A stretch of DNA of 36,786 nt from Frankia nepalensis (GTDB lineage Bacteria > Actinomycetota > Actinomycetes > Frankiales > Frankiaceae): positions 1 through 36,786 of the forward strand of contig NZ_JADWYU010000118.1 in NCBI RefSeq assembly GCF_016786325.1. The letters run 5' to 3'. Under the pieces are notes generated by a model. It ran no database searches, had not been told where the DNA came from, and saw only the letters and a list, made by a program, of their open reading frames with translations. Positions 15,232 to 36,786 of this stretch are shown in pieces. Numbering within the stretch: position 1 is the first letter of the stretch; every line of letters starts with the position of its first letter. The position numbers and the translations under genes were made by a program.

Positions 15232-16914
15232 ATGAACATCAGGATCCAGGGGGGCGGACGGCACGCGCGGGCCATCCGGCGGACCTCCACCGTCCTCGCC
15301 GCGCTGGCCTTGACGAGCGTCACCGCCGTCGCGTGCGGCTCGGACGACAGCTCCGACACCCCGGCCGCCGCCAGCGCCACGCCGGTCGCGGGCGGGAAGC
15401 TCACCTACGCGACCGTCCAGGAGCCGAGCTGCATCGACCCGGGCTACGACCCGAGCACGGTCACCGGCGTCATCGACCGCAACATCTTCGACTCCCTCGT
15501 CTCGCAGACCGCGACGGGCGAGACGAAGCCCTGGCTGGCGACCAGCTGGACGGTCTCCCCGGACGGCAAGACCTACCGGTTCTCGCTGCGTGACGGCGTG
15601 ACGTTCCACGACGGGACGGCGTTCGACGGCGCGGCGGTGAAGGCGACCTTCGACCACGCCGTCGACCCGGAGACGAAGTCGCTGTACGCCGCCGCGCTGC
15701 TGAGCGCCTACCAGGAGACCCGGGTGATCGACCCGCGGACCATCGAGGTGGTGCTCACGCGGCCGAACGCCTCGTTCCTGCAGAGCGTCGGGTCGCCGTT
15801 CCTCGGCATCCAGTCGCCCGCGTCGCTCGAGCGCTCCGCCGAGGAGCTGTGCACCAAGCCGGTCGGCTCCGGCGCCTTCACGTTCGTGAGCTGGACGAAG
15901 AACCGCGACCTGGTGCTGGCCAAGAACCCCGCCTACCAGTGGGCCCCGGACGCCGCCGACCACGACGGCCCGGCCTACCTCGACGGGATCACCTTCCAGT
16001 TCATCTCCGACGACACGGCCCGGTTCGGCGCGCTGACCTCCGGCCAGGTCAACGTCATCAACAACGTCCCGGCGGCGAACATCCGCGCGCTGAAGGCCAA
16101 CGGGTCCCTGCAGTACCTGCGCGCCGACTCGCCCGGCCTCGCCTACTCGCTGATCCTCAACACCGGCCGCGAGCCGCTGTCGGACGTGCGGGTCCGCCGG
16201 GCGCTGCTGCGCTCGGTGAACCTCGACGCGCTGGTCGAGTCGGTGTACTTCGGCGAGTACAACCGGGCCTGGAGCCTGCTGAGCCCGACCACGATCGGCT
16301 ACGACAAGTCCCTCGAAGGCACCTGGAAGTTCGACGCGGCGCTGGCGAACAAGCTGCTCGACGAGGCCGGCTGGACGCAGCGCGACGGTGACGGCTTCCG
16401 TACCAAGGACGGGAAGCGGCTGACCATCGTCTGGCGGACCGGCGCGCAGCTCGACCGGGACGGCCGCGGCGTCGTGGCCCAGGGCGTCCAGGCGGACGCC
16501 AAGAAGGTCGGCATCGACCTGCAGTACATCAGCGAGGACGTCGGCACCTTCAGCCAGCACATCTTCGCCGGTGACCTCGACATCTGGGGCGGCAACTACC
16601 AGCGGCCGGACGGCGACATCCTGCGGTTCGCGTTCGCCTCCGACCAGGGGATCACCAAGGGCGGCGGCAACCTGTTCGGCCTACAGGACCCCACCCTGGA
16701 CCGGCTGCTGAACGAGGCGTCGACGACCACCGACGAGGCGGTCCGGGAGAAGAACTGGGCCGACGCCCAGCAGTACGTGATCGACAACGCGCTGGCGGTG
16801 CCGCTCACCGTCGGGGCGAACCTGGTCGGCGCGTCGAACAAGGTGCAGGGCCTGCGCTTCGAGCAGTCCTCGAACCTGACGTTCTTCGACACCTGGCTGG
16901 ACCCGACGAAGTGA
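15232..16914 (+). CDS. ABC transporter substrate-binding lipoprotein (peptide/nickel family, SBP_bac_5)
   Basis: A 560-residue extracytoplasmic solute-binding protein. The twin-Arg-containing leader RHARAIRRTSTVLAALALT ends in VTAVAC, with lipid-acceptor Cys 35, then an Asp/Ser-rich tether. The mature part has the SBP_bac_5 landmarks TYATVQEPSCIDPGYDP, WTVSPDGKTYRFSLRDGVTF-HDG, SLILNTGREPLSDVRVRRAL, and a C-terminal ADAQQYVIDNALAVPL. ATG 15232 is preceded by AAGGAAG. It is the first gene of a four-gene transporter operon. The aby cluster as I recall it also has four ABC genes (abyF1-F4). Family members import oligopeptides or other small ligands; why the antibiotic cluster carries an importer-type system is not known. 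Confidence 0.93.
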   Translation: MNIRIQGGGRHARAIRRTSTVLAALALTSVTAVACGSDDSSDTPAAASATPVAGGKLTYATVQEPSCIDPGYDPSTVTGVIDRNIFDSLVSQTATGETKPWLATSWTVSPDGKTYRFSLRDGVTFHDGTAFDGAAVKATFDHAVDPETKSLYAAALLSAYQETRVIDPRTIEVVLTRPNASFLQSVGSPFLGIQSPASLERSAEELCTKPVGSGAFTFVSWTKNRDLVLAKNPAYQWAPDAADHDGPAYLDGITFQFISDDTARFGALTSGQVNVINNVPAANIRALKANGSLQYLRADSPGLAYSLILNTGREPLSDVRVRRALLRSVNLDALVESVYFGEYNRAWSLLSPTTIGYDKSLEGTWKFDAALANKLLDEAGWTQRDGDGFRTKDGKRLTIVWRTGAQLDRDGRGVVAQGVQADAKKVGIDLQYISEDVGTFSQHIFAGDLDIWGGNYQRPDGDILRFAFASDQGITKGGGNLFGLQDPTLDRLLNEASTTTDEAVREKNWADAQQYVIDNALAVPLTVGANLVGASNKVQGLRFEQSSNLTFFDTWLDPTK

Positions 16915-16964
16915 CGCGGCCGACCGCGGGAGCCCACCGCGCGAACGGCGCGGATTCCCGCCGC

Positions 16965-17020
16965 GCAAGGTCCACCGAATGAGGCCCACCGAATGAGGTC
17001 CATGGCATGAGGTCCACCAC
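16965..17020 (+). repeat. 14-bp tandem repeat duplicating the start-codon region, with two coupled mini-ORFs
   Basis: Four copies of a 14-bp unit (consensus ATGAGGTCCACCGA; copy 0 at 16965 lacks the ATG) run into the permease gene. Copies at 16979, 16993 and 17007 each begin ATGAGG. Because 14 is not a multiple of three, each ATG is in a different frame. ATG 16979 reads MRPTE then TGA (16994-16996). ATG 16993 reads MRSMA then TGA (17008-17010). Each stop overlaps the next start as ATGA, leading to the true start at 17007. Confidence 0.85.
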
Positions 17021-17942
17021 GTGGTGGCTGGCCCGGCGCCTCGCGCTCGCCGTCCTGGTCGTCGTCGGAGCGGCGACGGTGGCCTTCGGGGCCCTGCAGC
17101 TCGTTCCCGGCGACCCGGTGCACGTGATGATGGGCGGCGCGGCCCCGAGCGAGGAGGTCTACGAACGGACCCGCCACGAGCTCGGGTACGACCAGCCGCT
17201 GCCCGTCCGCTACGGCGAGTTCCTGGGCCAGCTGCTGCGTGGTGACCTCGGCCAGTCCTACCAGCTGCACCAGCCGGTGGCGGACGTGATCGGCAGCCAG
17301 CTGTGGCCGACCGTCCAGCTGGCGCTGGCCGCGTTCGGGCTCGCGTTCGTGGTGGCGGCGGCGCTCGCCGTCACCACGGCCGGGCGCCGGTCCGGGTGGC
17401 GACGGGTGGCGTCGGCCGCCGAGCTGCTGATGATCTCGACGCCTGGCTTCTGGGTCGGCGTGCTGCTGCTGACGTTCTTCTCGTTCCGGCTGCACCTGTT
17501 CCCGGTGGCCGGCGGCGACAGCCTGGCCGGGCTCGTGCTGCCCGCCGCCACCCTGGCGATCGGCCTGATCGGGGTGTTCGCGCAGGTCATGCGGGAGGGC
17601 CTGGAGCGGGCGCTGGAGCAGCCGTTCGTGCTCAGCGCCCGGGCACGCGGCACCGGGGAGACCGCGGTGCGGCTGCGCCACGCGCTGCGCCACGCGCTGA
17701 TCCCCATGGTCACCCTCTCCGGCTGGATCGTCGGCTCGCTGCTCGGCGGGGCCGTGCTGATCGAGACGATCTTCAGTCGGGAGGGGCTTGGGCGGATCAC
17801 CGCGACCGCCATCGCCGGGCGTGACCTCCCGCTGGTCACCGGCGTCGCGGTGGTGGCGGCGACGATCTTCGCTCTGCTCAACATCGCCGTGGACCTGCTC
17901 TACCGGGTCATCGACCCCCGGATGAAGGAGGTCGTCCGGTGA
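17007..17942 (+). CDS. ABC transporter permease, DppB/OppB type
   Basis: A 311-residue inner-membrane permease of the peptide/nickel family. The N-terminal helix (WWLARRLALAVLVVVGAATV) is followed by the periplasmic LVPGDPVHVMMGG motif. The EAA loop, with the pattern ARARGTGE...ALIPM, contacts the ATPase, and the C-terminus ends DLLYRVIDPRMK. About six membrane segments are visible. The start at 17007 lies at the end of a 14-bp tandem array with two 5-codon mini-ORFs coupled to it. Its stop overlaps a GTG (GTGA, 17939-17942) that would begin the second permease, although the frame there is interrupted. Confidence 0.93.
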   Translation: MRSTTWWLARRLALAVLVVVGAATVAFGALQLVPGDPVHVMMGGAAPSEEVYERTRHELGYDQPLPVRYGEFLGQLLRGDLGQSYQLHQPVADVIGSQLWPTVQLALAAFGLAFVVAAALAVTTAGRRSGWRRVASAAELLMISTPGFWVGVLLLTFFSFRLHLFPVAGGDSLAGLVLPAATLAIGLIGVFAQVMREGLERALEQPFVLSARARGTGETAVRLRHALRHALIPMVTLSGWIVGSLLGGAVLIETIFSREGLGRITATAIAGRDLPLVTGVAVVAATIFALLNIAVDLLYRVIDPRMKEVVR

Positions 17943-18065
17943 GCACCCCGGAGCTGACGACATCGAAGCTGGCCACATCGAAGCTGACCCCGTCGGAGCT
18001 GGGGGCGCCCGAGCTGGGGGCGTCCCGCCCCGAGGGCGCCGGCGCCGCGGGGGGGGCCGGCGGCC
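17939..18065 (+). other. Possible true N-terminal extension of permease 2, out of frame at a G8 run
   Basis: A GTG at 17939 overlaps the stop of permease 1 (GTGA), the usual sign of coupled translation. It opens a frame reading MSTPELTTSKLATSKLTPSE and an Ala/Gly-rich stretch. This frame is +2 relative to the permease domain. The two frames meet at a run of eight G (about 18049-18056). Removing one G would fuse them into a single permease with a repeat-rich cytosolic tail. As written, the permease must use the internal GTG at 18066. Confidence 0.5.
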
Positions 18066-18923
18066 GTGGCCGGCGTGGCGCGCCGATCCGCCGGGCGGGG
18101 CCGCCGGCGGATCGGCCCCGGCGTGGCGGTCAGCGCGCTGCTGGTCGCCCTGATCGCCCTGGCGGCGCTCTGGCCGGGCCTGCTCGCCCGGGCCGACCCG
18201 AACGCGGCGGAACCGGTCGACGCGCTGCTCGGGCCGAGCGGCGCGCACTGGTTCGGCACCGACCAGCTCGGCCGGGACGTGTACAGCCGGGTGGTGCACG
18301 GCGCCCGGGTGTCGCTGTTCATCGGCGTCGGCGCGACCGGCATCGCGCTGCTGCTCGGCTGCCTGATCGGGATGCTGGCCGCGACCTGCGGCCGGCTCGT
18401 CGACGAGATCCTGATGCGGATCACCGACGTGCTGCTGTCGTTCCCCGGGCTGCTGCTGGCCCTGCTCGTCGTCGCCATGCTGGGGCCGAGCAGCACCAAC
18501 GCGACCATCGCCATCGGCCTGTCCAGCGCGCCCGGGTTCGCCCGGCTGGTACGGGGCGAGGCGCTGGCGATCCGCGAGGCCGGCTACGTGCGCACCGCGG
18601 TCACGTTCGGCGCGGGGCGGGCCCGCGTGTACCTGCGTCACCTGCTGCCCAACGCGCTCACCCCCCTGCTGGTGCTCGCGCTGCTGAGCGTCGGCGCGGC
18701 GATCATCGCGGGCTCGTCGCTGAGCTATCTCGGCCTCGGGCCGCGGGTGCCCACCGCCGAGTGGGGCTCGATGCTGGCCCAGGGCAAGGACTTCCTCACC
18801 ATCTCCTGGGCGATGGCCGTCTTCCCAGGGCTCGCGATCACCGTGACCGTCATCGCCATCAACATCGTCGGCCGTGACCTGCAGCGGCGCTTCGAGGGGA
18901 GACACCCCGTTGGCCGATTCTGA
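18066..18923 (+). CDS. ABC transporter permease, DppC/OppC type
   Basis: A 285-residue permease partner of the preceding gene. After a basic N-terminus it has a first membrane helix (VSALLVALIALAALWPGLLA), the conserved HWFGTDQLGRDVYSRVVHGAR motif of DppC proteins (split here as HWFGTDQLGRD and VYSRVVHGAR), and the EAA loop FARLVRGEALAIREAGYVRTA. SSLSYLGLGPRVPTAEWG follows near the C-terminus. The start is uncertain: GTG 18066 has a G-rich sequence upstream that could serve as ribosome binding site, but a coupled GTG at 17939 lies in another frame across a G8 run (see separate entry). The end overlaps the ATPase gene by 14 bases. Confidence 0.88.
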   Translation: MAGVARRSAGRGRRRIGPGVAVSALLVALIALAALWPGLLARADPNAAEPVDALLGPSGAHWFGTDQLGRDVYSRVVHGARVSLFIGVGATGIALLLGCLIGMLAATCGRLVDEILMRITDVLLSFPGLLLALLVVAMLGPSSTNATIAIGLSSAPGFARLVRGEALAIREAGYVRTAVTFGAGRARVYLRHLLPNALTPLLVLALLSVGAAIIAGSSLSYLGLGPRVPTAEWGSMLAQGKDFLTISWAMAVFPGLAITVTVIAINIVGRDLQRRFEGRHPVGRF

Positions 18924-20964
18924 TCCGCTGCTCGCCGTGGACGACCTGCGGGTCTCGTTCGCCACCCGCGGCGGCCCGCTCGCGGCCGTGCGCGGGGTGA
19001 GCTTCACGCTGGCGGCGGGCGAGTGCCTCGCGATCGTCGGCGAGTCCGGCTCGGGCAAGAGCGTGACCGCCCGGGCGCTCGTCGGCCTGGTCGGGGCCGG
19101 CGCGGCCGTGTCGGCGCGCCGGCTCGAGCTCGCCGGGCAGGACCTGCTCGCCCTCGGCGAGCGGGACTGGCGCCGGGTCCGTGGCCGGCGGGTCGGGCTG
19201 GTGCTCCAGGACGCGCTGTCCTCCCTCGACCCGGTCCGGACGGTCGGCGCCGAGATCGCCGAGACCCTGGGCAACCATCGCCTGGTCCCCCGCTCCGCGC
19301 GGCCCGCCCGGGCGGTGGAGTTGCTGGCCGAGGCCAGCGTCCCGGAGCCGGCGCTGCGCGCCCGGCAGCGTCCGTTCGAGCTGTCCGGCGGGCTGCGCCA
19401 GCGGGCGCTGATCGCCTCGGCGCTCGCCGGGGAGCCGGCGGTGCTGCTCGCGGACGAGCCGACCACCGCGCTGGACGTGTCCGTGCAGGCGCAGATCCTC
19501 GACCTGCTCGCCGCGCGCAGGGCGGACGGGGTCGCGATCCTGCTGATCAGCCACGACCTGGCGGTCGTCGGCCGACTGGCCGACCGGGTCGCGGTGATGT
19601 ACGCGGGCACGATCGTCGAGGAGGGCGGCGTCGACGACCTGCTGCGCTCGCCGCGTCATCCCTACACCCGGGAGCTGCTCGCCGCCGTGCCGTCCGCGCA
19701 CGCCCGCGGCACCCGGCTGGCGGTCCACCGGGACGCGGCGGCGGCACCGGCCGTCGCCGCGCCGGACGCGGCCGGCTGCCGGTACGCGGCCCGTTGCCCG
19801 CTGGCCGAGGACCGCTGCCGCATGGCCGACCCGCCGGCGATCGACGTCGGGCATCCGGCGCCCGGCGCGGGGCTGTCCGCGGACGTCCCGCGCCCAGCGG
19901 CCGTGGATCTGGGTCTGCCGGCGGTCGAGAAAGGTCCGCCCGCGGCGGCGGCCGGCCCGGCCCGGGGCGGGGGAACGGCGGCCGCCGCCGTCGCGCATCG
20001 CGCCTGGTGCTGGCGGATCGACGAGCCATGGCCGGCCCCGCCGGCCGGCCCGGCCCGCGGCCGGGTACAGCACGCCGACGACGTCGTCATCGAGGTCGAC
20101 ACGGTCTGGAAGAGCTTCCGCGGCCCCGACGGGTCACGCAGGCCGGCCGTGCGCGGCGTGTCGTTCCAGCTGCGCGTGGGCGAGACGGTCGGCCTGCTCG
20201 GCGAGTCCGGCTCCGGCAAGAGCACGACCGCGGAGATGGTCCTGGGCCTGCTGGAGCCGGACGAGGGCGCGGTCCTGCTGCGCGGACGGCCCTGGTCACG
20301 GCTGGGAGAGTCGGCTCGGCGGCCGGACCGGCACCGGATCCAGCTCGTCCCGCAGGACCCGCTCGGCGCGTTCGACCCCCGCTACACCGTCGAACGGCTC
20401 ATCGGGGAGGCGCTGCGCGCGCCGGGCCGGCGGGCGGCGGCACGCCAGCGGGGCCGGATCGTCGAGCTGCTCGGCCTCGTCGGCCTCGACGCCTCGGTGC
20501 TGCCGCGGCGCGCCACCCAGCTCTCCGGCGGCCAGCGGCAGCGGGTCGCCATCGCCCGGGCGCTGGCTCCCGAGCCGGACGTGCTGGTCTGCGACGAGCC
20601 GGTGTCCGCGCTGGACGTGTCCATCCAGGCGCAGATCCTCGACGTGTTCGCCGACGTCCAGGACGCCCTCGGCGTGGCGATGCTGTTCATCTCGCACGAC
20701 CTGGGCGTGATCTACCACACCTGCGACCGGGTCCTGGTGATGCGGGACGGCGAGCTGCTGGAGCAGGGCGACGTCGAGCGGGTGCTGCGCGCGCCCGCGC
20801 ACGACTACACCCGGGCGCTGCTGGCGGCCGTGCCGCGCCTCGGCCCCGCCACCGGGCAGGTACCCGCCGGCTCGGGCGCCGGCGACGCCGCGCCCGCCGA
20901 CGGTCTCGGTGTCGGCTCCAATGTGGGCTTCGGTGTCGGCTCCGGCGTGGGCCCGCGCCGCTGA
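18910..20964 (+). CDS. Fused double ABC ATPase of the peptide transporter (DppD-DppF type)
   Basis: A 684-residue protein with two complete ABC domains. First domain: Walker A GESGSGKS (about residue 42), signature LSGGLRQR, Walker B VLLADEPTTALD. It ends in an oligopeptide-transporter C-terminal box with Cys pairs (GCRYAARCPLAEDRC). An Ala/Gly/Pro-rich linker (about 310-390) precedes the second domain: GESGSGKS, LSGGQRQR and VLVCDEPVSALD. The C-terminal tail repeats GVGS/GFGVGS. It drives transport by the two permeases. The start is TTG 18910, in the last codons of the permease gene, with GAGGGGAG upstream. This single fused gene replaces the separate DppD and DppF. Confidence 0.92.
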   Translation: MADSDPLLAVDDLRVSFATRGGPLAAVRGVSFTLAAGECLAIVGESGSGKSVTARALVGLVGAGAAVSARRLELAGQDLLALGERDWRRVRGRRVGLVLQDALSSLDPVRTVGAEIAETLGNHRLVPRSARPARAVELLAEASVPEPALRARQRPFELSGGLRQRALIASALAGEPAVLLADEPTTALDVSVQAQILDLLAARRADGVAILLISHDLAVVGRLADRVAVMYAGTIVEEGGVDDLLRSPRHPYTRELLAAVPSAHARGTRLAVHRDAAAAPAVAAPDAAGCRYAARCPLAEDRCRMADPPAIDVGHPAPGAGLSADVPRPAAVDLGLPAVEKGPPAAAAGPARGGGTAAAAVAHRAWCWRIDEPWPAPPAGPARGRVQHADDVVIEVDTVWKSFRGPDGSRRPAVRGVSFQLRVGETVGLLGESGSGKSTTAEMVLGLLEPDEGAVLLRGRPWSRLGESARRPDRHRIQLVPQDPLGAFDPRYTVERLIGEALRAPGRRAAARQRGRIVELLGLVGLDASVLPRRATQLSGGQRQRVAIARALAPEPDVLVCDEPVSALDVSIQAQILDVFADVQDALGVAMLFISHDLGVIYHTCDRVLVMRDGELLEQGDVERVLRAPAHDYTRALLAAVPRLGPATGQVPAGSGAGDAAPADGLGVGSNVGFGVGSGVGPRR

Positions 20965-21005
20965 GAGCCCGCGCCTCCCGCCGGCTGGCGGGCATCCCTC
21001 GTCGG

Positions 21006-21037: not shown

Positions 21038-21043
21038 GGAGCC

Positions 21044-21469
21044 ATGTCACAGCACCCCAGCGGTCTCATCGTCATCGGTCCCCTCACCGAGGTGACCACC
21101 GAGCTCAAGGTCGGCGACGGGGTTCTCGGCGCGCCGAAGGTCGGTGACTACGGCACGTACCAGGACGACCTGATCGACGCGGACGGCAACAAGATCGGCG
21201 AGGTGTTCGGGCGCGCCGAGGGCGTGTACCAGCGCCCGTCCGACGGCCACCTGTTCAGCTGGTACGTGGAGGACATCACCCTGCCCGGCGGCACGGCGGT
21301 GTACGAGGGGCCACTCGACGTCACCCTGGCGCAGACCGGAACCCCGGTGAAGGTGCCGATCGTCGGCACCGGCGGCAGGTACGAGGGCCTGCTCGGGACC
21401 CGCGAGGTCACCGTCGTGAGCCCCGATCGCTATGTCGACGTGAAGTTCGTGTTCTTCCCCGAGGTCTAG
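21044..21469 (+). CDS. abyU: AbyU-like spirotetronate [4+2] cyclase (Diels-Alderase), beta-barrel
   Basis: A 141-residue protein, the same length as AbyU of the abyssomicin pathway as I remember it, and alignable with it over most of its length. Shared blocks are VGxxGxxxDxLxDxxGxxIG, YxRPxDG, the near-identical WYVEDITL (YYQEDITL in AbyU) and GGRYEGLLG (SGRYLGLTG). The family is an eight-stranded barrel related to allene oxide cyclase that encloses the linear tetronate and catalyses intramolecular Diels-Alder closure. The pocket Tyr 76 of AbyU corresponds to Tyr 74 here, whereas AbyU Trp 124 appears to be Val 122. It is first gene of the abyU-A1-A2 operon behind a SARP-type promoter. The reaction is inferred from homology and context; the alignment was made from memory. 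Confidence 0.88.
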   Translation: MSQHPSGLIVIGPLTEVTTELKVGDGVLGAPKVGDYGTYQDDLIDADGNKIGEVFGRAEGVYQRPSDGHLFSWYVEDITLPGGTAVYEGPLDVTLAQTGTPVKVPIVGTGGRYEGLLGTREVTVVSPDRYVDVKFVFFPEV

Positions 21470-25324: not shown

Positions 25325-25359
25325 TGCGCGCACCCCCCAACTGGATCGTCACCAGGCCG

Positions 25360-25389: not shown

Positions 25390-25446
25390 AGACATCGTCG
25401 TTCCCTAATGCCGCTGCCTCCGGGTGGCCACTGCTTGGAGGTATCA

Positions 25447-27099: not shown

Positions 27100-27136
27100 C
27101 CGGCGCGCGACCGACGACCCGAAGGGAACCACGGCC

Positions 27137-28400: not shown

Positions 28401-31400
28401 TCAGTCGATCTCGCTCATGAGCCGGGCCAGCGCGGCGCGGGACGGGACGTTCAGCTTCCGGTAGATCCGGGTCAGGTGCACGTCGACGGTGCGTGGGCTG
28501 AGATAGAGTTCCGCCGCGATGTCCCGGGTCTTCTTGCCCGTCCCCGCGATCCTGGCGATCTCCCGCTCCCGCTCGGTGAGGACGGCCAGCGGGGACTCGG
28601 TGGCCCGGCCGGCACGCGCGCCACGGTCGGCGTCGGCCTGGTCGGCCGCGAGCTGGGCGAGGCGTCGCTGCTGCTTGTCCGCCTCCTCGTAGATGCTCGT
28701 CGCCCCGCACTCCCGGGCCAGCTCGCGCGCCCGCTGGAACATCACCGCGGCGTCCGGGGTCCGGTCCACCGCGGCGGCGCACTTGGCCGCGAGGATGAGC
28801 GCCCACGCCTCCAGGTAGACCATCCCGGCGGCCGCGAACGACGCCGCGGCGTTCTCGTAGAGCTCGGCGGCGGCCGCCGGCCCCAGCCGGGCGCGCACGA
28901 CGTGCGCGTGCACCGTGCGCGCGTAGCCGTGCTCGCACGACAGCGCCAGCGCGTCCGCGTCCAGCGGCCCGTCCAGCTGCTCGACCCAGTCCGGCGCCGG
29001 CCGGCTGCCCTGGATGTTCTCCAGGGCGGTCATCAGCAGCTCCTGGCAGGCAGAGCGCAGGAACGACGGCACCGACGGCAGGTCCGGGCCGCCGCCCGCG
29101 GTGACCAGCAGCCCGACGCAGCGCTCCGGGTCACCGGCGATGGTGGTCGCGTTCGCCAGCGAGATCGTGGCGACGTAGCTCCACCAGGAGCCGCTGCCCC
29201 GCAGGGTGCCGACCGCCTGCTCGGCGATGGACACCGCCCGGGTGGCCCGCGGGTCGGTCCACGAGCCGCACAGCGAGGTCAGCGCCAGCGCCAGCCCACG
29301 GATGTGGTGGGCGTCGATCTCCCGGGCGAGCTCCCTGGCCTCGCCCGCGGCCTGCTGCGCCTCGGCGAGCCGGCCCACCCGGTAGCAGGTCACGCTCAGC
29401 CCCACCAGCAGCAACGGCCGGACGTGCCGCTGGCCCGCGCGGGCGGACAGGGCCATCCCGCGCCGGAAGTGCCGCTCGGCGCCGTCGGTGCGGCCCAAAT
29501 AGGTCTCCGTCCAGGCGAGCGCGGCGACGTACTCGGGGTGGCGGGCGAGCTCCGTGTCGGGCAGCCCGTCCACCAGCGACGCGCAGGACGCGACGGTGCG
29601 CAGCGCGGCCGCCTTGTCGCCGCTCAGCGTCGCGTTGAGGCCGTCCAGGGCCAGCGCGCCGACCAGCGCGGTCCGGTCGCCGCGTGCCCGCGCCGTGCGC
29701 ACCGCGAACGCGACGTCGGCCTCGGGGGTCAGCTGGCCGTCGAAGACCCCGGCGATCCCCTGGGCGGTGATCATGCGCAGCGCGTCGGCTGGCCGGTCCC
29801 GCCCGCCGAGCTCGAGCTCCGCCGCGACCAGCGCGCGGGCCTCCTCGTACCGGCCGAGCAGGCACTCCATCAGGGAGCAGAAGGTCACCGCCTCGACCCG
29901 CGGGCCCGGCGACCCGACCGGGGAAGCCCGCAGGATCTCGTGCAGGATGTCCCGGCTGTCCGCCAGCCGTCCCGACGCGCCGAGCGCCTGGGCGAGCAGC
30001 AGCCGCAGCCGGAACTCGCGGTCGGGATCGGCGACGTCGCCGTGGGCGTCGCGGGGCAGCACCCGCAGCGCCACCCGCAGCCACCGCGCGGCCAGCCTCG
30101 GGTCGGACCTCGCCGCGTCCTGAGCCGCCAGGGTGAGCACGGCGAGGTCGTCGGCGTCGGAGCCGGCGAGCGACCGCTCGATGTGCACGGCCAGCTCACC
30201 GGCCGGCGCGCCCTGCTCGGCCAGCAGCAGGCGGGCCCGCCGGTGCGCCGGCACCCGCCAGCACGGGTCGATGTTCGCGTAGACGAGCATCCGCAGGAAC
30301 GGGTGCCGGAAGCAGTACTGCGGGGTGCCCTCGACGGGGCGCAGGACATCCCGGCGGACCAGCTCGGTGAGCGTCGCGCAGGCGGTGGTGGCGTCGAGGT
30401 CCGCGACGGCGGCGAGCCCCGGCAGGTCGAACCGGTCACCGAGCACGGCCGCGGCGTCGACGAGGCACCCCTGAGCACCGCCCTGGATCGCCAGGTCGCC
30501 GAGCACCAGCGCCGCGTACCGGTCGAAGACGGCGTCGCCGACCGGCAGGCGCGACGCCGACCCGGTGTGCGCCCCGGCCCGGGCCAGCGCGAGCAGGTAG
30601 AGCGGGTTGCCGCTGCTGTCCCGGTGCAGGTCACGCAGCCGCTGGCTGCGTGCCGGCAGCCCGGTGACCTGCGCCGCCTCGGCCAGCGACAGCCCGCGCA
30701 GCTCCAGGCGCTCGACGGTTCCGAGCGCCACGCCGCGGGCGAGGCTGCTGCGCAGCCGGGCATGCGCCTGGCGGCCCCGGTGCGCGACGACCACCAGCAG
30801 CGGTGCCTCGACCGGACGCCGGATCAGATAGTCGAGGAACTCCACGGAGCTGTCGTCCGCCCAGTGGAAGTCGTCGAGGACGAGCAGCAGCCCGCCGCCG
30901 GCCAGCTGCTCGAGCAGCGTGCGCGCGGCGCGGTACAGGGAGAACCTGGTCGAGTCCGCGGGTACGGCCGGGGCCTCGGCGGCACCGAGCGCGCCCTGGG
31001 GGCCGAGGTTGCGCGTGAGCACCTCGGCGGTCACGGGCGGCAGACCGGCCAGCGCCTCGGTGGTGAGCCGCTCCGCCAGCACGCCCGCGAGCACGCCGAA
31101 CGGGATGTCCTGCTCGAACTCGGTGCACCGCTCGGAGAGCACGGTGACGCCCTGGGCCCGCGCGTGCTCCGTTATCTCGGCGAGCAGGAACGTCTTGCCG
31201 ATGCCCGGCTCGCCGGAGATCTCCAGGATCCGGCCGGCCGCCCCGGGGACGGGCCACCGGAGCCGGTCGACCTCCCGGGCGACCCGTTCTCGTTCCGCGC
31301 CCCGGACGGGAACCGGTCCGGTGGCCGCCCTGTCCGGCCGGTCGGACCCGTCCGCCGGGCCGGCCGGGCTCGCCTCTGGAGTGCTGGCGCGGGCGCGGGT

Positions 31401-31487
31401 GAGGCCCGCGGCCGGTCGGGCGTTGGCCGCCCGGCCGCCGGGTGAACGGTTGGCCTGTGCTCGGATGATCGTGTCGACGCGGCTCAC
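28401..31487 (-). CDS. abyH: Large ATP-binding LuxR-family (LAL) transcription activator
   Basis: A 1028-residue regulator. An N-terminal AAA/NB-ARC-like ATPase has Walker A GEPGIGKT (residues 92-99) and Walker B LLLVLDDFHWAD. A long helical TPR-like middle region follows, then a C-terminal LuxR helix-turn-helix (last 65 residues: LTEREREIARIAGTGKKTRD, then LSPRTVDVHLTRIYRKL). LAL proteins activate antibiotic clusters and sense a ligand or ATP state. I chose the GTG at 31487 (MSRVDTIIRAQ); AAGGGAG lies about 12 bases upstream, a little far. The open frame extends farther, but that part is Arg-rich and off-family. It lies downstream of the SARP gene on the same strand, with a 356-base gap. Confidence 0.9.
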   Translation of the reverse strand: MSRVDTIIRAQANRSPGGRAANARPAAGLTRARASTPEASPAGPADGSDRPDRAATGPVPVRGAERERVAREVDRLRWPVPGAAGRILEISGEPGIGKTFLLAEITEHARAQGVTVLSERCTEFEQDIPFGVLAGVLAERLTTEALAGLPPVTAEVLTRNLGPQGALGAAEAPAVPADSTRFSLYRAARTLLEQLAGGGLLLVLDDFHWADDSSVEFLDYLIRRPVEAPLLVVVAHRGRQAHARLRSSLARGVALGTVERLELRGLSLAEAAQVTGLPARSQRLRDLHRDSSGNPLYLLALARAGAHTGSASRLPVGDAVFDRYAALVLGDLAIQGGAQGCLVDAAAVLGDRFDLPGLAAVADLDATTACATLTELVRRDVLRPVEGTPQYCFRHPFLRMLVYANIDPCWRVPAHRRARLLLAEQGAPAGELAVHIERSLAGSDADDLAVLTLAAQDAARSDPRLAARWLRVALRVLPRDAHGDVADPDREFRLRLLLAQALGASGRLADSRDILHEILRASPVGSPGPRVEAVTFCSLMECLLGRYEEARALVAAELELGGRDRPADALRMITAQGIAGVFDGQLTPEADVAFAVRTARARGDRTALVGALALDGLNATLSGDKAAALRTVASCASLVDGLPDTELARHPEYVAALAWTETYLGRTDGAERHFRRGMALSARAGQRHVRPLLLVGLSVTCYRVGRLAEAQQAAGEARELAREIDAHHIRGLALALTSLCGSWTDPRATRAVSIAEQAVGTLRGSGSWWSYVATISLANATTIAGDPERCVGLLVTAGGGPDLPSVPSFLRSACQELLMTALENIQGSRPAPDWVEQLDGPLDADALALSCEHGYARTVHAHVVRARLGPAAAAELYENAAASFAAAGMVYLEAWALILAAKCAAAVDRTPDAAVMFQRARELARECGATSIYEEADKQQRRLAQLAADQADADRGARAGRATESPLAVLTEREREIARIAGTGKKTRDIAAELYLSPRTVDVHLTRIYRKLNVPSRAALARLMSEID

Positions 31488-31843
31488 AGCGGAACAACGC
31501 TCCCTTCGCCGAAAGTGACCGCCCGACTGGTCGTCCGTCTCGACGATCGTGGCCAGTGCGGCGTTGCTGGTCCCCCGACGACGAGTTGTGGCCGCGCACG
31601 AACCACGGCGGCAGCGGGCGGTGCGATCGCCTACCGGGCTGACTGTGCGGCGCGGAACTACTCGGCGATCTGACGACAGAGCGAAGACGCGATCAACGCC
31701 ATGTCGATGTAATGGCGTTTGGTGAGGATCCGGAACCGGCCCATGGGCAGTGACCTTACCTCCCCCCACCAAGGCATGTTGCTACTTCACCTCTTTTCCC
31801 ATCGACGTGGTGGTAATCACGTTGCGTGGCATCGCCCTCCCGG
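31488..31843. other. Gap between the SARP and LuxR genes
   Basis: About 356 bases, less GC-rich than its surroundings. It holds a perfect inverted repeat AACGCCAT (31695-31702) / ATGGCGTT (31712-31719) with a nine-base spacer, and a possible 28-codon reading frame (entered separately). A separate promoter for the LuxR gene is probable here, but I cannot place it with confidence. Confidence 0.45.
31658..31744 (-). CDS. Possible small peptide gene between SARP and LuxR genes
   Basis: ATG 31744 opens a 28-residue frame, MGRFRILTKRHYIDMALIAS and eight more residues, basic at first then hydrophobic. A GGGGGAGGT lies upstream, but at about 13 bases, longer than ideal. The inverted repeat at 31695-31719 lies inside it. 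I do not recognise it, and it may be chance. Confidence 0.2.
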   Translation of the reverse strand: MGRFRILTKRHYIDMALIASSLCRQIAE

Positions 31844-32614
31844 TCAGCCAGCGCGCCGCAGGTCCAGACGGCCGTCGGCGGCGAGGATGGCGTCGTGCAA
31901 CTCGCGCAGCGCCCGCCCCGGGTCCAGGCCCAGCTCACCGCGCAGGATGTCGCGCACGCGGCGATAGGCGTGCAGGGCGTCGGCCTGCCTTTCGGAGCGG
32001 TAGAGGGCGAGCATGAGCTGACGGTGAAATGATTCACGCTGCGGGTGCTCGGCCGTCAGGGAATAAAGCTGGCCGACCAGTTCCCGATGACGACCGAGCA
32101 CCAGGGCGGAATCGATGCGGGCCTCCAGGCATTCGAGGCGCATTTCCTCGATCCAGGTGACGAATCCGGCGATCATTCCGCTCTCCCGCAGATCCGCGAG
32201 CACCGGCCCGCGCCCCATCCGCAGGGCGGCGTCGAAGTTCTCGACGGCTTCGGCGTGCCGGCCGGCACGGACGTCGGTGCGGCCACGCTGCACGAGTTTC
32301 TGGAAATCGTGCAGATCGAGTTCGTCGTCGCCCCGCCGCAGCAGGTAGCCACCGGGCCTGGTGACGATCGGACTGCCCGCCACATCCGGCCTGACCAGGA
32401 ATTTTCGCAGCTGGGACACGTAGACGTGCATCGCCGTGGTGGCCCGCCGGGGCGGCTCGCCGTCCCAGATCTCCTCCATCAGCCGGTCGGTGGTGACGAG
32501 CTGGTCGGCGCGGATGAGCAGGACGGACAGCAGGATCTTCACCTTGCGCGCGCTGATGGTCGGGCTTCCGGGCTTCCCGAGGACACGCAACGGGCCAAGG
32601 ACCTCGTATCTCAC
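31844..32614 (-). CDS. abyI: SARP-family transcription activator (AfsR/DnrI/AbyI type)
   Basis: A 256-residue SARP. It has an N-terminal OmpR-like winged-helix DNA-binding domain (MRYEVLGPLRVLG, DRLMEEIWDGEPPRRATTAM then HVYVSQLRK). A bacterial transcriptional activation domain (BTAD) of helical repeats fills the rest (ADLRESGMIAGFVTWIEEMR, ESFHRQLMLALYRSERQADA, YRRVRDILRGELGLDPG). I chose GTG 32614, with the purine-rich GGAAGAGAG upstream and the family's typical beginning. SARPs bind direct heptamer repeats 11 bp apart just before the -10 of antibiotic genes. Three such sites occur in this window, one in the divergent region right next to this gene, so it is the likely pathway activator. 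Confidence 0.93.
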   Translation of the reverse strand: MRYEVLGPLRVLGKPGSPTISARKVKILLSVLLIRADQLVTTDRLMEEIWDGEPPRRATTAMHVYVSQLRKFLVRPDVAGSPIVTRPGGYLLRRGDDELDLHDFQKLVQRGRTDVRAGRHAEAVENFDAALRMGRGPVLADLRESGMIAGFVTWIEEMRLECLEARIDSALVLGRHRELVGQLYSLTAEHPQRESFHRQLMLALYRSERQADALHAYRRVRDILRGELGLDPGRALRELHDAILAADGRLDLRRAG

Positions 32615-32927
32615 GACACTGCTCTCTTCCGACCGATGAACAGGCAACCGAATCACCGGGATGGCACGCGGCGCATCCCGGAGTGCTGGTGAAATCGTCC
32701 GGCCGCGGACCTGGCGTTCGAAGCGGCGGCGGCGCACCCATCGTCACACGTAGGCCCACCGGCCACATCCGCGAAATTACGTACTTCTCCGCCCCCAGGC
32801 GGCCGCCATGCCGGTCACCCACCGACTCCTGCTGTGACGCCGGTCACCGGATTGCCCGCCTGGCTATTAGCAGCGCTTTAGCGGGCGCCCGCAGGATGCG
32901 GTCGACCGATCGACGGAGGACGACCGC
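32615..32927. other. Divergent control region between the SARP and ACP genes
   Basis: About 313 bases. It holds the SARP-type site for the ACP operon (entered separately) and a less GC-rich stretch near 32771-32787 (GCGAAATTACGTACTTC) centred on TACGTA, which could contain the promoter for the SARP gene. No gene is seen. Confidence 0.5.
32866..32897 (+). promoter_or_regulatory. SARP-type operator and promoter (site 3, abyA3-A4-A5-PKS operon)
   Basis: Heptamers ATTAGCA (32866-32872) and TTTAGCG (32877-32883) are 11 bp apart. Eight bases later comes CAGGAT (32892-32897), fitting NANNNT. Here the start codon is 30 bases further, with a GGAGG ribosome binding site, so this transcript has a normal leader. 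Confidence 0.7.
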
Positions 32928-33155
32928 ATGGACAGCATCGAGGACTTCCTGGACCTCGTCCGCGACGAACTGGGCCTACCCGTGGCGACGCCGGAGGCCG
33001 GCACGGCCTTCGACGAGCTCGCCGGCTGGGACTCCGTCCACCTGCTCGCCCTGGCCACCGCCCTGGAGCGGGAGACCGGCCGGCGGCTGTCGCTGCCCGA
33101 GGTGCTGGAGACCACCAGCCTGGCGGAGCTGTACCAGCTGGCGGTGGGCCGATGA
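32928..33155 (+). CDS. abyA3: Discrete acyl carrier protein (glyceryl carrier, AbyA3/Agg3 type)
   Basis: A 75-residue acyl carrier protein. The phosphopantetheine attachment site is Ser 36 in GWDSVHLLALA, the usual DSL motif with Val in place of Leu. Four-helix ACP spacing is evident (FLDLVRDELGL at the start, LPEVLETTSLAELYQLA at the end). In tetronate pathways this carrier receives the glyceryl unit from the FkbH protein and presents it to the KASIII-like enzyme. ATG 32928 is preceded by GGAGG. The stop overlaps the start of the next gene as ATGA, so translation is coupled. Confidence 0.93.
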   Translation: MDSIEDFLDLVRDELGLPVATPEAGTAFDELAGWDSVHLLALATALERETGRRLSLPEVLETTSLAELYQLAVGR

Positions 33156-34198
33156 GCCCGCGCGGCCGGCGGCCCGCCGGCGCGGCCAACGGCGACGCGG
33201 CCAGTGACGGTGTGACCAGTGACGGCGTGACCAGCGGCGGCGTGACCAGCGGCGGCGTGACCAGCGGCGGCGTGGACGTGCGCCCGGTACGCCGGGAGCG
33301 CCGGCACACCCTGTACTTCCTCGGCGACGTGCGCCGGTTCTCCCCCGTCCACCTCGACACCGAGGTCGACATGAGCGCGGTGCTGCGGCACCGCGACGAG
33401 GCGGCGCGCGCGGGCCGGCGGTACTCGGTCGTCAGCTACGTGCTGCACGCCGGCGGCCGCACGCTCGCGGCGCACCCGGAGGCGAACGCGGCGATCGGCG
33501 GCCGCCTTCGGCCGAAGGTCGCGCGGTTCGCCACGGTCAGCGGCAAGCTGACCCTGGACCGGACCCTGTCCGGGCAGCGGGTGGTGCTCGCCGCCGTGCT
33601 CCAGGGCCTGGACCGCGCGACGCTCGACGAGATCCAGGCGACGGTCGACCACTACCGCGACGGCGACCCGGAGTCGATGCCGGAGTTCGCCGGCACCCGG
33701 GCGCTGCACCGGCTGCCCGCGCCCGTGGCGCGCGCCGCCTACCGGCGCGTCGCCAGTCCCTTGGCCCGGCGCGCGGCGGTGCGCGGGACGTTCTCGGTGA
33801 CCTCGCTGGGGCACCGCCCGGTGGACGGGTTCCACTCCGTCGGCGGCACCACGATCACCCTTGGCGTCGGCCAGATCGCCGAGCGCCCGGTGGTGCGCGC
33901 CAGCGCGGTGACGACCGCCCCGCTGCTGCGGCTCAGCCTGACCTTCGACCACCGGGTGATCGACGGCGCGGAGGCCGCCGACGTGCTGGCCGACCTGCGG
34001 GCCGCGCTGGAGACCTTCGGCGCGGCCGAGCCCGACCAGCCGTCCACGGACCCGGCCGCCACCGGCTCGGCCGCGACCGGCTCGGCCGCGACCGGCTCGA
34101 CTCCGGCCGGCCCGGCCGCCGCCGGCTCGGCCGGACCGGCGGCGGCGAGCTCCCCGGACGGCTCCCTGAACGGCTCCCTGGAAGGACTGCCCCGATGA
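33152..34198 (+). CDS. abyA4: E2-type acyltransferase acting on the tetronate (AbyA4/Agg4 type)
   Basis: A 348-residue protein with the catalytic domain of 2-oxoacid dehydrogenase acyltransferases but no lipoyl or subunit-binding domain. The catalytic motif is FDHRVIDGAEAADVL (His and Asp of HxxxDG), and the trimer-forming GTFSVTSLGHRPVDGFHSV precedes it. In agglomerin and abyssomicin pathways this enzyme acetylates the primary hydroxyl of the tetronate, preparing it for elimination. Both ends carry low-complexity repeats: a 15-bp unit encoding GVTSG near the N-terminus (33206-33271) and another encoding AATGS near the C-terminus (34055-34099). It is coupled to both neighbours by ATGA overlaps. 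Confidence 0.92.
   Translation: MSPRGRRPAGAANGDAASDGVTSDGVTSGGVTSGGVTSGGVDVRPVRRERRHTLYFLGDVRRFSPVHLDTEVDMSAVLRHRDEAARAGRRYSVVSYVLHAGGRTLAAHPEANAAIGGRLRPKVARFATVSGKLTLDRTLSGQRVVLAAVLQGLDRATLDEIQATVDHYRDGDPESMPEFAGTRALHRLPAPVARAAYRRVASPLARRAAVRGTFSVTSLGHRPVDGFHSVGGTTITLGVGQIAERPVVRASAVTTAPLLRLSLTFDHRVIDGAEAADVLADLRAALETFGAAEPDQPSTDPAATGSAATGSAATGSTPAGPAAAGSAGPAAASSPDGSLNGSLEGLPR
33206..33271. repeat. 15-bp tandem repeat in the abyA4 N-terminus
   Basis: Four units of GGCGGCGTGACCAGC type start at 33206, 33221, 33236 and 33251, with a partial fifth. They encode repeated (G/D)GVTS ahead of the catalytic domain. The reading frame is kept. Confidence 0.85.
34055..34099. repeat. 15-bp tandem repeat in the abyA4 C-terminus
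   Basis: Three units of GCCGCGACCGGCTCG (first with one change) start at 34055, 34070 and 34085 and encode AATGS repeats after the catalytic domain. Confidence 0.85.
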
Positions 34199-35271
34199 GC
34201 GACGTGGCCGAGCTGCGGCAGTACGCGCTGGTGCACGCCCGCAGCCAGGGCATCGGCCCAGACGTCTACGGCCCGGTACTCGACGGCGTCGACAACGACT
34301 CCGACGGCGCCGAGGGCTCGTGGGCGCTCGCCTGGAGCCGGGCCGCCGCCGACGCCGAGCGCCGCGGCGAGCTGCTCGACGCCGTCCGGCTCTACAACCT
34401 GGCCCGGTTCCCCTACGTGGACGGGCCGGTGCGCCGGGAGGCGCACGCCCGCTCGGTCGCCGCGTTCGACGCGTGGCGGCGGGCCGGCACCGATATCCAG
34501 TCCCTGGAGCTGGACCTGCCCGGCGGCCGGGTCCGGGCGTGGGGCGCCGGGCTGTCCGCCACCGAGCGCCGGCCGCTGGTGATCCTGATGGGCGGCATCG
34601 TCAGCACCAAGGAGAGCCACGCCCCCGCGCTCGCCGAGGCGGACGTGCTCGGGATGGCCGGCATCGCGACCGAGATCCCCGGGATCGGCGAGAACGGCCT
34701 GGCCTACGGCCCGGACAGCTGGCGGCTGCTGCCCGACCTGCTGGACGCGGTCGCCGACCAGGCCGACGTGGCGAACACCTACGCGCTGACGCTGAGCTTC
34801 AGCGGCCATCTGGCGCTGCGCGCCGCGGCCGCCGACCCGCGCATCCGCGGGGTGGTGACGACGGGCGCGCCGGTGCACGACTTCTTCACCGACGCCGACT
34901 GGCTGGCCCAGGTCCCGCGGATCACCCTGGACACCCTCGCCCACCTGACCGGCGCCAAGGTCGCCGACCTGCCCGCCCACCTGCGCGACTGGGTGATCCC
35001 GGACGAGGAGCTGGCCGGTCTCGACATCCCCGTCGCCTACGCCGCGAGCCTGCGCGACGAGATCATCCCGCCCGGTGACCTCGCCCGGCTGCGCCGCCAC
35101 CTGCGCCGCCTCGAGGTGCTGGAGAAGGACGACGTGCATGGTTCCCCGGCCCACGTGGCCGAGGTCCGGCTCTGGACGATCCTCACCGTCCTGCGGCAGC
35201 GGGGCGTCACCGGTCCCGTCGTCGACGGGCTGACCGCCGCGGTCGAGGCGGCTCGCACGAAGGAGCACTGA
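34195..35271 (+). CDS. abyA5: Alpha/beta-hydrolase for acetate elimination (AbyA5/Agg5 type)
   Basis: A 358-residue alpha/beta-hydrolase of the FrsA/esterase-like group. An N-terminal helical segment (1-100) is followed by LVILMGGIVSTKESH (oxyanion strand) and the nucleophile elbow LTLSFSGHLAL, with probable Ser 203 (SxSG in place of the usual GxSxG). Asp 288 in ASLRDEIIPP and His 315 or 320 in DDVHGSPAH are the candidate acid and base. In tetronate pathways it eliminates acetic acid from the acetylated intermediate, leaving the exocyclic methylene that serves as dienophile in the later cyclisation. The start overlaps the abyA4 stop (ATGA); seven bases separate it from the PKS gene. Confidence 0.9.
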   Translation: MSDVAELRQYALVHARSQGIGPDVYGPVLDGVDNDSDGAEGSWALAWSRAAADAERRGELLDAVRLYNLARFPYVDGPVRREAHARSVAAFDAWRRAGTDIQSLELDLPGGRVRAWGAGLSATERRPLVILMGGIVSTKESHAPALAEADVLGMAGIATEIPGIGENGLAYGPDSWRLLPDLLDAVADQADVANTYALTLSFSGHLALRAAAADPRIRGVVTTGAPVHDFFTDADWLAQVPRITLDTLAHLTGAKVADLPAHLRDWVIPDEELAGLDIPVAYAASLRDEIIPPGDLARLRRHLRRLEVLEKDDVHGSPAHVAEVRLWTILTVLRQRGVTGPVVDGLTAAVEAARTKEH

Positions 35272-35278
35272 CCCCGCG

Positions 35279-36786
35279 ATGGGATCCGAGAAGAACCGCG
35301 CGACCGCCCCGGCCGTAGGCGCCGACACCAGCCCCGGCTCGAACCGGGGCACCGGCATCAGCGGCGCCCGCGAGCCGATCGCGGTGGTCGGACTGTCCTG
35401 CCGGCTGCCCCAGGCCGCGAGCCCCGCCGAGTTCTGGCGGCTGCTGCGCGACGGGGTGGACGCGGTGACCGACGCGCCGGCCGACCGCTGGGACCTGGAG
35501 CTGCTCGCCGAACTCGGCCTGTCCGAGTACGGCCGTGGCGGGTTCCTCGACGCCGTCGACCGGTTCGACGCGGGCTTCTTCGGGATCTCACCGCGCGAGG
35601 CCGCGGCGATGGACCCCCAGCAGCGCCTCGTGCTGGAGCTGGCGTGGGAGGTGCTGGAAGACGCGGGCGTCGTGCCGGAGACGCTGCGCGGCAGCCGGAC
35701 CGGTGTGTTCGTCGGCGCGGTCGGCTCCGAGTACGCGAGCCTCACCGGGCGGTACGGGCCGGCGGCGATCGACCGGCATACCATGACCGGCCAGGCCCGC
35801 GGCCTTATCGCCAACCGGGTCTCCTACCTGCTCGGGCTGCGCGGGCCGAGCCTCGTCGTCGACGCCGCCCAGTCCTCCGGCCTGGTCGCGGTCCACCTGG
35901 CCTGCGAGAGCCTGTGGCGGGGCGAGACGACACTCGCCATCGCCGGCGGCGTCAACCTGAACCTGCTCGCCGACACCAGCGTCGCGGCGGCGCGGTTCGG
36001 CGCGCTGTCCCCCGACGGGCGCGCCTACACCTTCGACGCCCGCGCGAACGGCTACGTGCGCGGTGAGGGCGGGGCGACGGTCCTGCTCATGCCGCTGTCG
36101 CGGGCGATCGCCGAGGGCTGGCGCGGCTACGGGGTGATCCTGGGCGGCGCGGTGAACAACGACGGCGGCGGCGCGGGACTGGCCGTGCCCGACGGCGCCG
36201 CGCAGGCCGCCGTCCTGCGGGCCGCCTACGCCGACGCCGGCGTGGACCCGGCCGAGGTCCGCTACGTCGAGCTGCACGGGACGGGCACGAAGGTCGGCGA
36301 CCCGGTCGAGGCGCGGGCGCTCGGCGCGGTGCTCGGCGCCGGCCGCTCGGAGGACCGCCGGCTGCGGGTCGGCTCGGCGAAGACGAACGTCGGGCACCTG
36401 GAGGGCGCCGCCGGCATCGTCGGGCTGCTCAAGGTCCTGCTCGCCCTGCGCCACCGCCAGCTTCCGGCCACCCTGCACCACGCCGAGCCGAACCCGGCGA
36501 TCGGGCTGGCCGACCTCGGCCTCGCCGTCCAGGACCGGCTCGGCCCCTGGCCGGCCGGCGGCGGCCGCGGCGACGGTGACGACGGCGACGGCGACGGCGA
36601 CGGCGACACGCTCGTCGCGGGCGTGAGCTCGTTCGGCATGGGGGGCACCAACTGCCACCTGGTCGTCGCCGGGGCGCCGGGCATCCCGGCGCCGCGCCCC
36701 CCCAACCAGGAGCCGCCCCCGGGCGGCCCGCGGGCCCGGCCCCGGCCGGTCACCCGGCCCCCCCCGCCCCCCCTGCGGCCCGGGGG
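35279..36786 (+). CDS. abyB1: Type I modular polyketide synthase, loading KSQ domain (3'-truncated by window end)
   Basis: 502 codons run open to the end of the window. After about 30 residues the ketosynthase domain begins (EPIAVVGLSCRLP). The active-site segment reads VDAAQSSGLVAVHLA: Gln 198 (codon 35870-35872) replaces the catalytic Cys, marking a KSQ loading domain that decarboxylates malonyl- or methylmalonyl-ACP to make the starter. Both His motifs are intact: ELHGTGTKVGDP and KTNVGHLEGAAG. The domain ends SSFGMGGTNCHLVV, after an Asp/Gly-rich insert (GDGDDGDGDGDGD). The final 80 bases are a Pro/Arg-rich linker with long C and G runs and may contain base-call errors. The start is ATG 35279, with AAGGAG about 13 bases upstream, overlapping the end of abyA5. 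An AT domain should follow. Confidence 0.93.
   Translation, partial: MGSEKNRATAPAVGADTSPGSNRGTGISGAREPIAVVGLSCRLPQAASPAEFWRLLRDGVDAVTDAPADRWDLELLAELGLSEYGRGGFLDAVDRFDAGFFGISPREAAAMDPQQRLVLELAWEVLEDAGVVPETLRGSRTGVFVGAVGSEYASLTGRYGPAAIDRHTMTGQARGLIANRVSYLLGLRGPSLVVDAAQSSGLVAVHLACESLWRGETTLAIAGGVNLNLLADTSVAAARFGALSPDGRAYTFDARANGYVRGEGGATVLLMPLSRAIAEGWRGYGVILGGAVNNDGGGAGLAVPDGAAQAAVLRAAYADAGVDPAEVRYVELHGTGTKVGDPVEARALGAVLGAGRSEDRRLRVGSAKTNVGHLEGAAGIVGLLKVLLALRHRQLPATLHHAEPNPAIGLADLGLAVQDRLGPWPAGGGRGDGDDGDGDGDGDTLVAGVSSFGMGGTNCHLVVAGAPGIPAPRPPNQEPPPGGPRARPRPVTRPPPPPLRPG

Follow-up and report, generated by a model that had tools for sequence, protein, structure and literature searches.

A split tetronate cassette and a modular polyketide synthase in Frankia nepalensis

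The stretch of DNA analyzed here (the window; 36,786 nucleotides) comprises bases 1-36,786 of contig C341, a contig of 62,863 bases in the draft genome of Frankia nepalensis (10.73 Mb in 398 contigs). From position 15,232 onward lie clustered genes for a tetronate polyketide, the modular polyketide synthase (PKS) of which continues beyond the window. Comparison with orthologous clusters in Parafrankia colletiae Cc1.17 and Frankia sp. EI5c suggests that this PKS was probably shortened by five modules in a single recombination, and that two genes related to [4+2]-cyclases were kept. The genes and features follow in their order on the contig, with profile matches and their E-values in parentheses:

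15,232-16,914, forward: ABC substrate-binding protein, AbyF1-like (SBP_bac_5, PF00496, 1.1e-81); 86-88% amino acid identity in EI5c and Cc1.17
17,007-17,942, forward: ABC permease 1 (PF00528, 9.3e-29)
18,066-18,923, forward: ABC permease 2 (PF00528, 2.2e-29)
18,874-20,964, forward: fused double ABC ATPase (ABC_tran twice, 1.6e-56)
21,044-21,469, forward: AOC-barrel [4+2]-cyclase homologue, 141 amino acids (AOC_like, PF18678, 3e-40)
21,474-22,544, forward: tetronate A1, KASIII-like ketosynthase (PF08545, 1.3e-10), Cys retained in QSGCSG
22,541-24,709 (predicted start), forward: tetronate A2, FkbH-type glyceryl-ACP (acyl carrier protein) synthase (TIGR01686, 6.6e-86)
24,635-25,333, reverse: TetR regulator (PF00440, PF16859)
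25,306-27,099, forward: DHA2-family MFS exporter (PF07690, 1.5e-52; TIGR00711, above its cut-off)
27,080-28,195, forward: luciferase-like monooxygenase (LLM), MsnO8 family (PF00296, 2.6e-40; TIGR03558, 7.5e-120)
28,401-31,772, reverse: LAL regulator (AAA_16 and LuxR helix-turn-helix)
31,844-32,737, reverse: SARP regulator (BTAD, 6.1e-48)
32,928-33,155, forward: tetronate A3, discrete ACP (PF00550, 3.7e-8), serine in GWDSVHL
33,152-34,198, forward: tetronate A4, E2-type acyltransferase (PF00198, 3.9e-19), DHRVIDG motif
34,195-35,271, forward: tetronate A5, alpha/beta-hydrolase (PF06500, 4.2e-11)
35,279-36,786, forward: KSQ of the PKS loading module (ketosynthase profile), VVDAAQSSG
36,787-36,796: scaffold gap of 10 N at the window end, inside the linker from KSQ to acyltransferase (AT), with low-complexity flanks
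36,933-55,994: PKS open reading frame (ORF) beyond the window, loading AT-ACP and three extension modules
56,074-61,194: separate terminal PKS module, beyond the window
61,230-62,813: FAD_binding_3 enzyme after the terminal module; the contig ends 50 bases on, at 62,863

All five genes of a tetronate cluster (KASIII, FkbH, discrete ACP, E2-type acyltransferase and alpha/beta-hydrolase) are present, in two blocks, A1-A2 at 21,474-24,709 and A3-A5 at 32,928-35,271. The loading ketosynthase (KS) is assigned as KSQ because Gln replaces Cys in its motif. Neither A2 nor an ORF at 17,939-18,877, which overlaps permease 2, had a match in the Pfam and profile searches, respectively. An earlier note on this DNA had listed the tetronate five, the cyclase, TetR, MFS, LLM, LAL, SARP, ABC and KSQ genes and the split of the cassette; every one of these genes lies in 15,232-36,786 with a significant profile match, and the coordinates of the two blocks agree with the split. 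Its view that little more than the PKS body is missing holds for the window taken alone, but the contig holds 26 kb more, with PKS modules and the FAD enzyme.

Upstream of the cluster, positions 3152-14,700 encode a P450 (3152-4423), an SDR, a SnoaL-like protein, a globin, a TPR protein and a carboxyltransferase; a P450 and a SnoaL gene also lie upstream of the EI5c cluster, on the opposite strand.

The PKS as assembled is shorter than in two related clusters

Domains and motifs on C341 give a KSQ-AT-ACP loading module followed by four extension modules (M1 to M4). The loading module combines KSQ with a YASH-type (methylmalonyl) AT. M1 has a malonyl AT, a dehydratase (DH) and a ketoreductase (KR); M2, which has no DH, combines a malonyl AT with an A-type KR (its LDD-type Asp is absent); M3 has a methylmalonyl AT, DH and KR; and M4 has a malonyl-type AT and a KR that, by eye, lacks the catalytic Ser and Tyr, the motif scan giving no KR signature there. 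M4 would therefore leave the beta-keto end that is required for tetronate formation. Read collinearly, the line would produce CH3CH2-CH=CH-CH(OH)-CH2-CH=C(CH3)-CO-tetronate, a C15 acyl tetronate (C15H18O5, calculated [M+H]+ 279.12). Since this predicted chain contains no conjugated diene, cycloaddition to a spirotetronate or to a decalin is not expected of it, and the combination typical of a class II (decalin) spirotetronate chain, with dienes for both additions, an enone dienophile and a four-atom tether, is not predicted for the F. nepalensis PKS. The earlier note had proposed extending the sequence to the right, and had named a chain unable to form the diene as evidence against its reading: further PKS modules are indeed there, and the assembled PKS, read collinearly, gives such a chain.

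Orthologous clusters were found in Cc1.17 (NZ_MBLM01000112.1, contig C112), where the cluster is complete, and in EI5c (NZ_LRTK01000008.1, contig C8), where it is in pieces; both strains belong to the Frankiaceae, like the host, and to a different genus. The third locus of the same scan was a mere 26-residue match in a gammaproteobacterial metagenome-assembled genome. Between the ABC genes and KSQ both clusters are arranged as in F. nepalensis, the split cassette included, and the 15 genes that precede the PKS encode proteins 76-95% identical in amino acid sequence to those of Cc1.17 and EI5c over the aligned parts. Both also have the first and last PKS modules and the FAD enzyme (86%) as in F. 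nepalensis, but they possess middle PKS modules that F. nepalensis lacks. Another difference lies between the ATPase and the cyclase, where Cc1.17 has approximately 5.5 kb of additional DNA (7735-13,230 of the locus) in which few genes are convincing, compared to approximately 80 bases in F. nepalensis.

The Cc1.17 PKS is complete, with a loading module and nine extension modules (m1 to m9). Following the loading module, m1 to m5 are all malonyl-DH-KR, m6 is methylmalonyl-KR, m7 malonyl-KR, and m8 methylmalonyl-DH-KR; in m9, with a malonyl AT, the scan found no KR signature intact. DH and KR motifs were detected in m1 to m5 and in m8 (the first DH motif only in m8). In m4 an NADPH motif was unmatched, the record having an N at 52,832 there. 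The predicted chain is CH3CH2-(CH=CH)5-CH(OH)-CH(CH3)-CH(OH)-CH2-CH=C(CH3)-CO-tetronate. Prior to any tailoring, the product would have the composition C26H32O6 (calculated m/z 441.23). A four-atom tether between an enone and a polyene gives a decalin through an intramolecular Diels-Alder reaction. ChlE3 and PyrE3 form such decalins, as described in the available part of PMC13273814. The predicted pentaene of Cc1.17, tethered over four atoms to a methyl-enone dienophile, is what would be expected of class II spirotetronates. A better name for the family is that of Frankiaceae spirotetronates whose full form follows the chain logic of class II. In EI5c the PKS is spread over four contigs: C8 reaches to 35.2 kb, and the others match 38.5-53.2, 56.3-59.1 and 61.0-88.0 kb of Cc1.17 C112 (matches above 82% and 250 bases). 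Most of the middle modules are thus present in EI5c, scattered over separate contigs, but its module order is unproven because three PKS stretches are uncovered.

Two putative cyclase genes are retained

The AOC gene is the sole PF18678 match at E ≤ 0.001 in the F. nepalensis genome. Its orthologues in the two relatives are 84 and 83% identical, and matches above 80% identity came from these three Frankiaceae only. The profile matched 27 of 295 genomes (the F. nepalensis genome included), two of the others being those with the orthologues, and the protein itself had matches in 6 of 393 genomes sampled from the class (again including its own; 47% identity at most beyond the three orthologues) and in 1 of 394 sampled from another family (48%); plasmid records gave no match to it. 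Among PDB entries the protein is clearly homologous to AbyU (2.6e-16) and AbmU (5.7e-15), but it is far closer to 9uuv (5e-50) and far from PyrI4 (0.026). In this analysis the subfamily was seen in three Frankiaceae genomes and one PDB entry, and a literature search for the code 9uuv found nothing. Tandem AOC_like gene pairs were seen in Cc1.17 (C80:154636-155608) and in another Frankiaceae genome (G031, C161:1882-2854).

The FAD enzyme may be a cyclase or an oxygenase. Its best PDB match is ChlE3 (1.4e-85), although the margin is small, the identities over aligned parts being 45.8% to ChlE3, 45.4% to PyrE3, 44.9% to OxyS and 43.1% to FlsO1. ChlE3 and PyrE3 are 56% identical to each other, and in an unrooted tree built from aligned parts, rather than full sequences, of five reference enzymes the FAD enzyme falls outside their pair. 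It also retains Arg22 and Arg49 in the alignment, both of which are lost in ChlE3 and PyrE3 and present in FlsO1, OxyS and 6j0z. These two points tell against a part of the history proposed below, and they leave a substantial chance, somewhat short of even, that the enzyme is a post-PKS oxygenase and not a decalin cyclase. PyrE3-type cyclases are said to lose several of four NADPH-binding arginines, according to the part of PMC7489565 available. A cyclase role is favored by the replacement of Arg115 and Arg222, which are kept in all five references, by the position of the gene after the terminal PKS module in Cc1.17 as well, and by two further Frankiaceae loci, L130 (G027:C441:24953-26290) and L131 (G022:C118:8983-10323), which have a KASIII gene and in which a FAD homologue lies within approximately 5 kb of a terminal-module-like PKS region.

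FAD homologues as such are common, at E ≤ 1e-60 in 23 of 58 genomes. Two from genomes of the same genus, L133 (G004:C5:2610-4148) and L136 (G001:C1:5211293-5212756), are 49-52% identical to ChlE3 and PyrE3 and fall in their tree group. The L130 locus also has FkbH and ACP genes, and the genomes with L130 and L131 have no listed AOC_like match; both loci are candidates for a tetrodecamycin-like, decalin-only tetronate (compare TedJ, in the part of PMC12380092 available).

A putative contraction joins module 2 to module 7

C341 is collinear with Cc1.17 to approximately 46.1 kb; collinearity then resumes approximately 29.1 kb further on and continues almost to the contig end (alignments above 78% and 200 bases). 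The best switch from module 2 to module 7 lies within M2, at 46,102-46,105 (region approximately 46,105-46,560): to the left, 325 of 425 informative sites favor m2, and to the right, 240 of 370 favor m7. The switch adjoins an AT stretch in which m2 and m7 of Cc1.17 are 100% identical in three of four 100-nucleotide windows from 46,151 (86% in the fourth), with exact repeats of 276 and 122 bp at offsets of 29,149 and 29,122. AT2, AT7 and the chimeric AT all have malonyl-type motifs, and the fused ORF is open over 6,353 codons. The junction is therefore in frame and lies at a repeat that two modules with the same kind of AT specificity have in common, the repeat being seen in Cc1.17 and not directly in F. 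nepalensis. The shortened line would be chemically coherent, as KS2 would still meet the module-1 product and KS8 a beta-hydroxyacyl chain.

Whole-genome searches with the missing segment (C112 42.3-57.9, 57.0-67.0 and 38.5-42.3 kb), in each of which 40 of 1,714-2,772 first-look candidates were scored, gave no match of at least 1 kb above 77% outside C341; the best such match was in a KS region. When the segment was cut into 400-nucleotide windows, 20 of 71 reached 300 bits in the PKS contigs of F. nepalensis itself (C341, C129, C131, C135, part of C155, and C178), 19 of them against other modules of C341 and one against C135. The same windows reached this score in 59 of 71 cases against EI5c contigs, and control windows from the collinear part did so in 51 of 62 cases against the F. 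nepalensis contigs. C129, C131 and C135 were considered as carriers of the missing modules and rejected, their products being 40-54% identical in amino acid sequence to Cc1.17 modules, compared to 80% for EI5c contig C124. C129 (L011) has a second KSQ loading module, C131 (L012) and C135 (L013) have VASH-type ATs, and C131 has a FAD-enzyme homologue (31%) and P450-like genes recognized by eye only; these three contigs probably represent a different PKS cluster.

Several observations weigh against a contraction, or against its having left the cyclases without a substrate. Of the 795 informative sites, 230 contradict the two-part pattern, 100 on the left and 130 on the right; they may stem from divergence, but they blur the switch point. 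The assembly is a draft of 398 contigs, and C341 is itself a scaffold interrupted by an N gap. Were the two copies identical in F. nepalensis, a short-read assembler could go wrong at the very place where the junction is found, and a draft so searched cannot prove a deletion. The direction, loss here as opposed to gain in the relatives, rests on three strains and the chimeric module. Finally, the ratio of non-synonymous to synonymous substitution rates (dN/dS) is 0.36-0.41 for the AOC gene and 0.29 for the FAD gene, like the neighboring genes, so that there is no sign of relaxed constraint.

That the contraction is real and the cluster a decaying, silent remnant is compatible with the explanation preferred here and seems somewhat unlikely to us. 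A remnant would fit a predicted chain without the diene that the retained cyclases require. However, the N gap aside, the frames are open throughout the cluster, ABC and FAD genes included, and dN/dS is 0.07-0.53 in the 19 genes or modules compared (permease 2, the ATPase and LAL were excluded, and the row pairing M4 with EI5c, 60% over 954 codons, probably has the wrong partner). A recent loss would not be visible yet. Pseudogenized cyclases were rejected, as there are no frame breaks and dN/dS is not raised.

An assembly artefact, in which the full loading-plus-nine PKS is present and the assembler passed from module 2 into module 7 by way of the repeat, dropping a 29-kb loop, is in our estimation unlikely. 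The near-identity of the two modules at the switch in Cc1.17, the N gap with its low-complexity flanks, and the break of the EI5c assembly within the same PKS are all what such an error would lead one to expect. Nevertheless, a skipped loop should survive as contigs, and none appears at ortholog level in the searches of the 10.73-Mb assembly, with 40 candidates scored in each; EI5c retained such contigs, one of merely 3,002 bp, and the C341 PKS has only three exact repeats of at least 45 bp, the longest of 54 bp. Because a lost-loop error would normally leave contigs, we favor a real in-frame contraction as the probable explanation.

An abyssomicin-like gene set with a different assembly line

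The earlier note had called the cluster abyssomicin-type and, from recall, a gene-for-gene match to aby. Parts of this stand: the cluster is one for a tetronate polyketide, it has a cyclase gene of spirotetronate type, its regulators and exporter are aby-like, and the tetronate five, the AOC-fold cyclase and the TetR, MFS, LLM, LAL, SARP and ABC genes are common to F. nepalensis, aby (Micromonospora maris) and abm (Streptomyces koyangensis). Putative Frankia spirotetronate genes related to aby were noted in 2011 (PMC3625739, in part), and a paper of 2020 (PMC7176366, in part) reported both Frankia clusters resembling those for abyssomicin and paralogues of the cyclase in Cc1.17. The abyssomicin reading and the gene-for-gene match fail on several counts. 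The aby and abm PKSs have seven modules (PMC3625739 and PMC5819245, parts available), as opposed to loading plus four in F. nepalensis and loading plus nine in Cc1.17, so that both the short and the long form differ in module number and order. The cyclase is far closer to 9uuv than to AbyU. An enzyme of FAD_binding_3 type is present in F. nepalensis and is not named in the abm gene table (PMC5819245) or the aby gene list (PMC7176366), as far as the parts available of these sources go. The same parts of PMC5819245 and PMC3625739 describe a P450 and a type II thioesterase in aby and abm; the AbyV-type P450 epoxidase and AbyT-type thioesterase homologues that the earlier note had suggested looking for were not among the ORFs scanned in 15.2-62.9 kb of the contig. 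For these reasons a genuine class I cluster making abyssomicin, despite the shared genes and the clear homology to AbyU, is highly improbable, and the label was rejected.

The cassette differs too: A1-A5 are contiguous in abm and in type 1 clusters (PMC5819245 and PMC7176366, parts available), and a split into A1-A2 and A3-A5 is not described among types 1-4 in Table 2 of PMC7176366, as far as the available part goes. The pairing of a FAD-fold enzyme with an AOC barrel occurs in the chlorothricin (ChlE3/ChlL) and pyrroindomycin (PyrE3/PyrI4) systems (PMC13273814, in part), as here.

A proposed history of the cluster

Taken together, we consider it probable that an ancestral spirotetronate-type line of loading plus nine modules was shortened in F. 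nepalensis by one recombination, an interpretation drawn from sequence comparison. The ancestral PKS, as in Cc1.17 and in fragments in EI5c, would have begun with a KSQ module that loads propionate, followed by nine extension modules, and would have built a chain with a conjugated pentaene, a CH(OH)-CH(Me)-CH(OH)-CH2 tether and an alpha-methyl enone with a beta-ketoacyl end. FkbH, ACP and KASIII would release this chain as a 3-acyl tetronate, A4 and A5 would introduce the 5-methylene, and the FAD enzyme and AOC barrel would close the rings through [4+2] additions. In F. nepalensis, an in-frame recombination between near-identical AT2 and AT7 coding stretches would have cut out approximately 29.1 kb, a net loss of five modules, and created the chimera KS2-AT7-KR7-ACP7.

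Loss of modules through repeats is on record for engineered strains of the rapamycin and tylosin systems, and where a junction of the rapamycin set falls inside an AT, the two ATs joined are alike in specificity (PMC5663706, in part). Those contractions were made in the laboratory, whereas that of F. nepalensis is deduced from a draft genome compared with its relatives; by analogy it looks like a natural instance of repeat-mediated PKS contraction. No paper on the F. nepalensis cluster or its contraction was among the literature matches listed, as judged by titles and abstract starts. More tentatively, we propose a natural and functional five-module contraction, from a ring-forming polyene spirotetronate line to one for a C15 linear methylene-tetronate, with both [4+2]-type cyclase genes kept; the retained cyclases may then act on another substrate. 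The F. nepalensis cluster probably no longer makes the caged molecule for which its ring-closing enzymes were built.

For genome mining, the cluster is a warning that an aby-like gene set does not mean abyssomicin, and the long form in P. colletiae is a candidate for a new decalin-spirotetronate. A real and functional contraction would be a parallel in nature to the accelerated evolution carried out in the laboratory, and its uncontracted version would still exist in related strains. Clusters with and without the five-module block would allow one to ask which junctions nature accepts in modular PKSs, and what becomes of dedicated cyclases once their substrate disappears.

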